Shown: positions 13,725 through 16,083 of the stretch, piece after piece
Numbering within the stretch: the first letter of the stretch is position 1
Layout of the letters: the number at the start of each line of letters is the position of its first letter
NCBI GenBank assembly: GCA_001003705.1
Contig: LCPQ01000013.1
Location: forward strand, 1-39,250
Length of the DNA: 39,250 bases
Reading direction: 5' to 3'
Origin: Parcubacteria group bacterium GW2011_GWA2_48_9
Lineage (GTDB): Bacteria; Patescibacteriota; Patescibacteriia; UBA10025
Position numbers and translations under genes: made by a program
Notes under the pieces: model-generated
What the model was told of the DNA's origin: nothing
Databases searched by the model: none
Seen by the model: only the letters and a program-made list of their open reading frames with translations

Positions 13725-13754
13725 TTGACACTTCGGTTTTTCTTCGGCTATACT
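13725..13754 (+). promoter_or_regulatory. lexA promoter with candidate LexA operator in the spacer
   Basis: TTGACA - 18 bp - TATACT; spacer contains CTTCGGTTTTTCTTCGG (13731-13747). Confidence 0.75.
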
Positions 13755-13815
13755 TTCAGTGTCACTGACGGACCTCTCCCTACCCCTTATAATCCCTCAT
13801 AACCCTTTCTTAAAT

Positions 13816-14439
13816 ATGGCCCCCGTACTCCCAAAGCAAAAACAGAAAATACTGTTTTTTCTGAAACACTACATTGAGCGTCAGGGATTCGCTCCGACCC
13901 TGACTGAGATAGCTAAGGAGTTTGGCGTGTCATCGCTTGCAACGGTACATGAGCATCTTCAGTTTCTTGAAAAGAGGGGTTTTATTAAAAGAGACAAAAG
14001 TACTGCTCGCGGGATTTCAATTGTTGACCGTGAAATTCAGGATTCAGCCAACTCGGCATCAATCCTGCTTCCTCTGGTCGGCATGATTACTGCTGGTGAG
14101 CCTATCGAGGCAGTTGAGAACGTCGACGAACATATACCCATTCCGAAGGAACTCGTGGGAAATAAAAATGCCTTCCTATTAAAGGTAAAAGGAGACTCCA
14201 TGGTAGAAAGCTTGATTGCCGATGGAGATCTCGTTATCGTTGAGAAGACGGACATCGCTCGTGACGGTGATATGGTCATTGCGCTGCTTGAAGACGGTTC
14301 AGCAACTCTAAAAAAGCTTTATCATCAAAAAAACTATATTCGCCTTCAACCAGCGAATAGCGCTTATAAATCCCGTGTAGTGAAAAATGTAGTGATTCAG
14401 GGTAGAGTGATGGGAATCTTGCGTACATATCGGGGCTAG
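13816..14439 (+). CDS. lexA: LexA SOS repressor (ATG 13816 preferred over the ORF-track start, which lies at the predicted TSS)
   Basis: wHTH TLTEIAKEFGVSSLATVHEHLQFLEKRGFI; cleavage site TAGEP; GDSM Ser and ATLKKLY Lys dyad. Confidence 0.93.
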   Translation: MAPVLPKQKQKILFFLKHYIERQGFAPTLTEIAKEFGVSSLATVHEHLQFLEKRGFIKRDKSTARGISIVDREIQDSANSASILLPLVGMITAGEPIEAVENVDEHIPIPKELVGNKNAFLLKVKGDSMVESLIADGDLVIVEKTDIARDGDMVIALLEDGSATLKKLYHQKNYIRLQPANSAYKSRVVKNVVIQGRVMGILRTYRG

Positions 14440-14459: not shown

Positions 14460-14476
14460 CTTCGGTTTTTCTTCGG
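14460..14476 (+). promoter_or_regulatory. Second copy of the candidate LexA operator, abutting the Y-family polymerase start
   Basis: CTTCGGTTTTTCTTCGG, identical to the lexA promoter copy (18 nt including the preceding A). Confidence 0.7.
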
Positions 14477-14477
14477 T

Positions 14478-15659
14478 ATGAAACAGCCTCACTCTCCCCT
14501 TCAAAACATTCTCTTTATAAGTCTCGACAGATTCATTGCGTCGGTGCATGAGGCTTTGCAGCCGGAACTGAGATCGCGGCCGTTATTGATTGTAACTCGG
14601 CAGCGGCCTGGCATTGTGGCAAGCGCGAATGCAAAAGCATATGCTCATGGAGTACGCTCAAACATGGCGACGGATGAGGCCAAGCAACTGTGCCCGGACT
14701 TGCAGGTACTATTTGCCGACGGCGAACAAATCACCCAATTCTCGCAAGAATTCTACCGCATTCTTCATCGTTTCTCTGAAAAAGTTGAAGCTGTGACGCT
14801 TGATGAGGCGTATGTGGACCTGACAGGCTACGAATCGCTTTGGATAGCTCCTGAATACGCCGCAATCAGGATAAAAGAAACTATCGCTAAAGAAATAGAG
14901 TGCACCGCTTCGATTGGAATTGCATCTAACAAGATAACTGCGTTTATTGCATCGAAGAGCAAAAAGCCAGACGGACTTACTGCGGTTCCATGGGGGCGTG
15001 AAGCATTGTTCCTTCATGCGCAGAATGTCGTACTTATGCCTGGGGTAGGAACCCGCATAAAAACACTGTTGAACGAAGTGGGAATATTCACCATTGGTGA
15101 TATTGCGCATACAGGGCCTGAGTATCTTCGAGCAGTATTGGGAGATTCAGCATACGCTATTATCAAATTTGCCCATGGGATAGATCACCGCCCCATACAT
15201 CACAGGATATACTCTCAATCGATTACCAGGACGCAAGCGCTGAAAAAGGCTCCTCACTACTCCTCGGTGCCGAAGATAATATCAGCGTTAGCAAAAAAAA
15301 CGGTCTTACACCTGGATATGAACAAAAGTAATGCAAGAACAATTGCTGTCAGATTGAAATTATCGGACGGCAGTACCCGTCAACGGCAGAAAACGTATTC
15401 AAGTCAGTTATATGCAAAAGATGTAGCCGCGAGCGCCCGAAGACTTTTACTCGATATGCATTATTACGAGGAGCCACTGGTGTCGGTAAGTGTACAGCTT
15501 TCACGACTTTCTTCTCATAATCATCGGGGGCAACACATATCGCAAAATTCTTTTTACCGTCTCAAGAGTATAAAAAAATCCCTTGGTTTTCTTTCGCGCC
15601 GGTTTGGCATAGAAACATCAGCATACAAGCTTCCTACTACTGCGCAGCTGTCGATTTAA
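14478..15659 (+). CDS. Y-family DNA polymerase homologue (DinB/ImuB-like) with degraded active site
   Basis: LFISLDRFIASVHEALQPELRSRPLLIV, ASANAKAYAHGVRSNM, VEAVTLDEAYVDLTG, SIGIASNKITAFIASKSKKPDG, LMPGVGTRIKTLLNEVGI. Confidence 0.9.
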   Translation: MKQPHSPLQNILFISLDRFIASVHEALQPELRSRPLLIVTRQRPGIVASANAKAYAHGVRSNMATDEAKQLCPDLQVLFADGEQITQFSQEFYRILHRFSEKVEAVTLDEAYVDLTGYESLWIAPEYAAIRIKETIAKEIECTASIGIASNKITAFIASKSKKPDGLTAVPWGREALFLHAQNVVLMPGVGTRIKTLLNEVGIFTIGDIAHTGPEYLRAVLGDSAYAIIKFAHGIDHRPIHHRIYSQSITRTQALKKAPHYSSVPKIISALAKKTVLHLDMNKSNARTIAVRLKLSDGSTRQRQKTYSSQLYAKDVAASARRLLLDMHYYEEPLVSVSVQLSRLSSHNHRGQHISQNSFYRLKSIKKSLGFLSRRFGIETSAYKLPTTAQLSI

Positions 15660-16083
15660 TTTTATATGCGGTATTTCGTCGTAACGTAATCGACGGCTCA
15701 CTTCCATAAAAAGGGGTGACAACGCTGGCATAGCTAGTACTAAGTATGTGAATTGCTTCTTTGACTGCGCCGATCGAAATATCTGGCCCGCTGCTGGAAA
15801 TACCAAGACAAGGAATTCCGATCGCATAGCTTAGGGCGTTCGCCGTGACGACACCCAAACGAATTGCTGAGAATCCTCCAGGTCCCCTTTCGACGATAAT
15901 ACCATTGACGGGCCTTTTTGACATACGGAGTGCACCGGAAAGTGTATATAGTGAACGGATAAGTGCACCTGAAGTTAGCCTTTTTTTTGAACGAATATCA
16001 TGCAGTGCGTATTTTTTTCCTCGCGAATCAAAAATGCCCAATCGGGCATGATTAAGAAAACGCGTATCGAGATACCAATACAT
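15637..16083 (-). CDS. tsaB: Short TsaB-like protein
   Basis: MYWYLDTRFLNHARLGIFD..., GIIVERGPGGFSAIRLGVVTANALSYAIGIPCLGISS. Confidence 0.75.
   Translation of the reverse strand: MYWYLDTRFLNHARLGIFDSRGKKYALHDIRSKKRLTSGALIRSLYTLSGALRMSKRPVNGIIVERGPGGFSAIRLGVVTANALSYAIGIPCLGISSSGPDISIGAVKEAIHILSTSYASVVTPFYGSEPSITLRRNTAYKIKSTAAQ

Follow-up and report, generated by a model that had tools for sequence, protein, structure and literature searches.

A lexA-linked, probably inactive Y-family polymerase homologue without a detected DnaE2 partner in one order of Patescibacteria

The lexA–pseudo-polymerase locus

The DNA analyzed here—a stretch of 39,250 nucleotides, hereafter called the window—is part of contig C13. 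The genome measures 1.26 Mb in 44 contigs and is estimated to be 94.7% complete. The window bears lexA and, downstream on the same strand, a gene for a Y-family protein, which we refer to as the pseudo-polymerase (Table 1). For lexA, the ATG at 13816 agrees with the start in relatives, the longest open reading frame beginning at 13759. The pseudo-polymerase is a full-length Y-family protein with matches to Pfam IMS (4.9e-41) and IMS_C (2.1e-7), and bears palm, fingers, thumb, and little finger. PDB chains of Pol IV and Dpo4 match it with E values from 2.7e-33, cover most of its length, and align motif I without gaps. Its predicted structure (mean pLDDT 81) finds Y-family polymerases as best PDB matches, with E values down to 4.9e-34 among these and a TMq of 0.73 against the Pol IV chain 6l97_B.

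The window and the five other genomes of the order that carry an orthologue share the gene order: lexA is followed by the pseudo-polymerase gene, after which come, on the opposite strand, a TsaB/TsaD-like gene and an HTH gene. In the window, the TsaD/TsaB-like gene (15637-16083, minus strand; Pfam TsaD only 1.8e-7) and the pseudo-polymerase gene meet end to end with an overlap of 23 bases. In three of the five relatives, lexA and the pseudo-polymerase gene are separated by a further divergent gene, which encodes 171-197 aa without a Pfam match and is absent from the window. Next to lexA, genomes of the sister family carry a divergent gene that encodes an M50-metallopeptidase-like HELAH/HELSH motif and has another LexA-type box at its far end.

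Table 1 Features of the lexA–pseudo-polymerase locus and of related loci
Feature	Position	Strand	Remark
lexA promoter TTGACA-18 nt-TATACT	13725..13754	+	11/12 consensus matches; spacer filled by LexA-type box
LexA-type direct-repeat box CTTCGGTTTTTCTTCGG upstream of lexA	13731..13747	+	
lexA	13816..14439	+	TIGR00498 2e-59; orthologues in L004-L009
LexA-type box CTTCGGTTTTTCTTCGG upstream of pseudo-polymerase gene	14460..14476	+	conserved before all six orthologues
Y-family pseudo-polymerase gene	14478..15659	+	393 aa
S15 codon, place of the invariant metal-binding Asp (Dpo4 D7/Pol IV D8)	14520..14522	+	alignment
I20 codon, steric-gate position (F or Y in active homologues)	14535..14537	+	alignment
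Retained Asp-Glu pair D109, E110	14802..14807	+	Glu position Q or S in three orthologues
W122-I123, invariant in six pseudo-polymerases, rare in active ones	14841..14846	+	conservation
Decayed beta-clamp-binding site (QxxLF-type in active sister proteins)	15516..15548	+	
RecA-N-terminus-like motif IKKSLGFLSRRFG, residues 365-377	15570..15608	+	region of predicted helix 357-376
Extra divergent gene between lexA and pseudo-polymerase gene	L206:2823-3350, L204:2945-3538, L207:2351-2866		
M50-like divergent gene beside lexA	L203:1109-1912, L204:1448-2281, L206:4063-4854		

A shared LexA-type box

The same direct-repeat box precedes both genes, as a reading made from the sequence alone had proposed; 0.03 occurrences would be expected by chance with up to two mismatches. 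The promoter layout of lexA, with the box in the spacer, is repeated upstream of lexA in L004, and the box form TTCGGTTTTTNTTCGG lies upstream of all six known pseudo-polymerase genes. Over 57 genomes, 34 box sites were listed versus 2 for the reversed pattern, and in the genomes inspected these fall mostly at lexA or PolY loci. With this predicted binding site in its promoter region, the pseudo-polymerase gene is probably under SOS control. The exact box is found three times in its own genome—at lexA, at the pseudo-polymerase gene, and at a second PolY locus—and a wider LexA regulon was rejected for this genome, as the box occurs at those loci only. The box itself is probably already known, since a Patescibacteria LexA network has been published: PMC7739468 and PMC8565304 have the title in their reference lists, and PMC7739468 cites the work among LexA proteins that recognize direct repeats.

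The ATG of the pseudo-polymerase gene is positioned one base past the box (region 14460-14486), at the place where relatives and lexA bear a -10-like hexamer, and no Shine-Dalgarno sequence is visible before it. The gene may be leaderless, be expressed by read-through from lexA, or use another start codon.

Loss of a catalytic residue

Mapped onto Dpo4, the first metal ligand D7 (D8 in Pol IV) corresponds to S15 of the window protein, without insertion or deletion at the motif, and the steric gate Y12 to I20. Further changes are Y48 to A52, R51 to Y55, and K152 to F156; D9 (D17), D105/E106 (D109/E110), and K159 (K163) are kept. The sequence-only reading had named the changes at D7, the gate, Y48, and R51 as well as the surviving Asp-Glu pair and distal Lys, all of which this mapping bears out; it had missed K152. 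The structure prediction and alignment with Pol IV and Dpo4 that it had suggested likewise return a Y-family fold with Ser at D7.

Among 120 comparison Y-family proteins, D7 is Asp and the gate F or Y without exception. At the place of R51, apparently active homologues have R or K, and at that of Y48 they differ from one another; hence the Y48 change is little diagnostic. Judged by alignment, D7 and the steric gate are the diagnostic positions among the changed residues. The window protein thus lacks both the complete catalytic Asp/Asp/Glu set (D7, D105, E106) and the aromatic gate of an active Pol IV/DinB, and shows the loss of a catalytic acidic residue within a Y-family fold that characterizes ImuB. 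Pol IV D8A, altered at the residue equivalent to D7, makes no DNA (PMC9522359). On its residues, the window protein is very probably catalytically dead. A local sequencing error or misalignment was ruled out, because the motif I alignment contains no gaps and five other, independent genomes likewise have Ser or Arg in place of D7.

Orthologues and phylogeny

These five genomes belong to the same order, each to a different genus, and their orthologues share 29-39% identity with the window protein. In genome contigs, an alignment query found relatives where the single protein had found none; the pseudo-polymerase set comprises six members only, aligned at 30-40% identity. The D7 position reads S, S, S, S, and R in the five orthologues, so that the Asp is lost in 6/6 members. 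Normal catalytic residues in all close orthologues would have pointed to a local error, as the earlier reading had noted; the relatives instead share the substitution. Three of the six retain E106, and the others have Q, Q, and S in its place; the gate is Ile in two and Cys in one. In the L008 orthologue, D7, D9, D105, E106, and K159 have become R, P, S, S, and A, and despite this erased site the open reading frame, the LexA-type box, the synteny, and a predicted Y-family fold (mean pLDDT 75) are kept. The L006 and L007 proteins retain D9, D105, E106, K159, and the gate, and may possess residual or altered-metal activity.

Phylogenetic analysis of 48 proteins places the six pseudo-polymerases in one clade (support 100/99), whose sister is the lexA-linked PolY of two Kerfeldbacteria-type genomes (97/92) with all catalytic residues kept. 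Since the six form one clade beside an active sister, the simplest history would be a single loss of D7 in the stem of the order with further erosion later. The window protein branches inside the Pol IV-like group, and ImuB sequences lie elsewhere on very long branches. Placing the six with ImuB is disfavored, though formally not rejected (AU p = 0.083)—a result to be expected for very long branches.

Within the clade, W122, I123, E91, and E141 are fixed in 6/6 and W172 in 5/6, and W122-I123 is a candidate for a new contact site. Compared with active pairs matched for identity, conservation is higher in the thumb (0.42 versus 0.32, sd 0.055), a difference of ~1.9 sd that is suggestive only, and lower in the little finger (0.215 versus 0.296, sd 0.046). 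The conserved Arg positions of the little finger are mostly lost.

The C-terminus

Active sister proteins carry a QxxLF-type clamp-binding site, and the clamp-site Gln is present in 96% of active proteins versus 2/6 pseudo-polymerases. In the window protein, the aligned segment reads RGQHISQNSFY, and only one of the six clade members is QxxLF-like here. The window protein hence lacks the beta-clamp motif that precedes the RecA-NT motif in ImuB (PMC11791113). The sequence-only reading had instead seen a clamp-binding tail in the terminal TAQLSI. This is not supported, as TAQLSI is unique to the window protein and the structure prediction around it is of low confidence, the region being probably disordered.

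The RecA-NT motif is present: IKKSLGFLSRRFG compares with AQDAVEQIKERFG at the N-terminus of the genome's own RecA, and the protein stops 16 residues beyond it. The pattern occurs in all six pseudo-polymerases and, in the whole Y-family set, in 54/126 proteins versus 0.6 expected from shuffled tails. This places the window protein among RecA-NT-bearing PolYs with putative RecA binding. In mycobacteria, RecA-NT mediates binding of ImuB to ImuA' (PMC11791113). An Asp inside the motif, found in 97% of active PolYs, is lost in the clade, and RecA binding may therefore be weakened.

Partner genes

Eight genomes—six of the order and two sister genomes—were searched for partners. Each bears one dnaE and one strong recA; a second dnaE was detected neither in the own genome nor in the other seven. 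The ImuA profile retrieves only the recA gene in these genomes, and ImuB-C/DUF6504 (PF20114) was found neither in the window protein nor in the eight genomes, with a Caulobacter control genome positive. For the own genome alone, a missing dnaE2 would mean little because of its 44-contig, 94.7% complete assembly; the absence rests on more complete relatives (G001 and G003, both 100%). The imuA or second dnaE that the earlier reading had suggested looking for is thus not detected.

A second, canonical PolY

The own genome (G000) encodes a second Y-family gene (C1:72843-73837, minus strand; L002), a canonical PolY that is disrupted. It matches residues 5-102 and 146-413 of an intact relative in different frames, with ~43 codons including the DE motif missing; the preceding small gene and LexA-type box are intact. 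An assembly error may lie behind this deletion. In G004, no second PolY was found, and the pseudo-polymerase is the sole Y-family gene found. If both hold, the dead protein is the only intact Y-family protein in these two genomes. Among orthologues from the same genomes, identity is ~36% for the pseudo-polymerase and 56-68% for the second PolY.

The small gene beside the second PolY (L002:1815-2060, minus strand) encodes 82 aa. It belongs to a family of ~80-aa proteins whose genes precede those of active PolYs throughout the class, with homologues in about 30 loci; for the members tested, neither Pfam nor NCBIfam gave a significant match. Two relatives of the 82-aa protein show sub-threshold DUF6504 matches (E 0.04-0.11). 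The 82-aa protein was rejected as an ImuB-C, as profile comparison with three ImuB C-termini gave no match. The family is a candidate small subunit of Patescibacteria PolY, and follows the other PolY type rather than the lexA-linked one, since it is absent from G004, G048, and G080.

A possible non-catalytic role

We suggest that the ancestor of the order had a Pol IV-like polymerase linked to lexA, that an Asp-to-Ser change there removed the first metal ligand of this enzyme, and that the dead protein was retained for a non-catalytic job. LexA would repress the gene, and the protein would be made after damage. Its C-terminal RecA-NT helix would dock it onto RecA, and thumb and palm might bind DNA or the single replicative DnaE—so that a stalled polymerase could be slowed or released, or lesion handling be set up. 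Such a protein would be a stripped-down functional counterpart of ImuB that does not need a dedicated error-prone polymerase. LexA repression, RecA docking, and action on DnaE or the fork are here inferred. For this scheme as a whole—a vertically inherited pseudo-polymerase with a RecA-linked role at the fork—we consider the case evenly poised. Non-catalytic action of a Y-family protein is physically possible, because Pol IV D8A slows the replisome without synthesis and D8A without its clamp tail still displaces Pol III (PMC9522359). The conserved thumb hints weakly at a polymerase contact, as the thumb of mycobacterial ImuB touches DnaE2 in a model (PMC12926913).

That the protein is a true ImuB, a dead hub bringing DnaE2 and ImuA to the clamp, would fit its RecA-NT-like motif, its LexA-type box, the ImuB-like order of clamp site and RecA-NT (PMC11791113), and the AU test. 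The missing partners largely refute this: one dnaE in 8/8 genomes, an ImuA profile that retrieves recA only, and no ImuB-C domain. With the clamp site decayed and active PolYs as closest relatives, the idea is barely credible, and membership in an ImuB system was rejected on the missing dnaE2, imuA, and ImuB-C domain. Of the ImuB-like pseudo-polymerase in the sequence-only reading, the dead Y-family homologue and its probable SOS control thus stand, and its hub for mutagenic DnaE2 survives only in the weaker form of a non-catalytic, RecA-linked accessory. A decaying pseudogene carried along by linkage to lexA could explain why the protein diverges faster than the second PolY; it is highly unlikely in view of six intact open reading frames in six genera at ~35% identity, the conserved box directly upstream, the conserved predicted fold, invariant clade-specific residues such as W122-I123, and the gene's position as sole Y-family gene found in G004.

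Somewhat less remote, yet still unlikely, is a working polymerase with a rebuilt metal site that takes Ser for Asp and uses D17, D109, and E110. The window protein, L006, and L007 do keep the equivalents of D9, D105, E106, and K159, but D7 is invariant in 120/120 homologues, D8A is inactive (PMC9522359), E106 is lost in half of the clade, the gate is Ile or Cys in three members, and L008 is left without any ligand. A protein acting mainly on RecA—by capping filament ends or in SOS feedback—rather than on a polymerase deserves more weight, though we regard it as doubtful. The kept RecA-NT helix, the loss of the clamp site and of most little-finger Arg positions, and the box shared with the adjoining lexA speak for it; however, pure RecA capping would not require palm, fingers, and thumb, which are all retained, the thumb being unusually conserved. 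Returning to action at the fork, its most specific form is no more than tentative: a DnaE2-independent, SOS-controlled pseudo-polymerase that works via RecA on the one replicative polymerase present in a bacterium with a reduced genome. It would be a natural counterpart of dead Pol IV, a replisome brake or release factor, and would have replaced Y-family synthesis altogether where an active PolY is missing or disrupted, as in G004 and apparently in the own genome.

Inactive Y-family proteins in bacteria have so far been explained by partnership with DnaE2, and the published inactive PolY systems are coupled to it, according to the available parts of PMC6511836 and PMC12926913. An inactive PolY without DnaE2 is an unusual point for this reason, and as far as these parts go, ours is apparently the first one found. 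Here, such a protein is kept over six genera without detectable DnaE2, ImuA, or ImuB-C; it has lost its catalytic and clamp sites and retains SOS-type control and the motif for RecA docking. This separates the non-catalytic job of a Y-family protein from mutagenic DnaE2 in a directly testable way, and raises the question of what use a Y-family protein unable to make DNA might be at a damaged fork. The clade offers a graded natural series for this, which begins with proteins that lack D7 but have the other ligands and ends with a wholly erased site, and an active sister is also encoded beside lexA.

Comparison with known systems

Like the window protein, ImuB is an inactive, SOS-controlled Y-family protein with a RecA-NT-like motif near its C-terminus. 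Unlike ImuB, the window protein bears neither ImuB-C domain nor clamp motif and is placed elsewhere in the tree, and ImuA and DnaE2 were not found in its genome. The iPolY proteins (scDinB2-like, gbDinB2-like, and Kyrpidia type) are closer in being Pol IV-like, inactive, and RecA-NT-bearing, and are thought to pair with RecA (PMC6511836, PMC12926913). The iPolY systems described in the available parts of these papers are coupled to DnaE2, which was not detected in the genome of the window protein, and the inactivation seen here is, unlike that of the iPolY types, specific to one Patescibacteria order.

The active PolY of Candidatus Kerfeldbacteria (G048/L009/L122; also G080/L047) shares the LexA-type box and RecA-NT with the window gene, adjoins lexA in L009, and is its sister in the tree. 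It differs in keeping D7, D9, D105, E106, K159, the steric gate, and a QxSLF clamp site. E. coli Pol IV D8A lacks the equivalent residue and slows the replisome without synthesis (PMC9522359). It is a man-made laboratory mutant that binds the clamp, and by analogy the window protein might act in a similar way.
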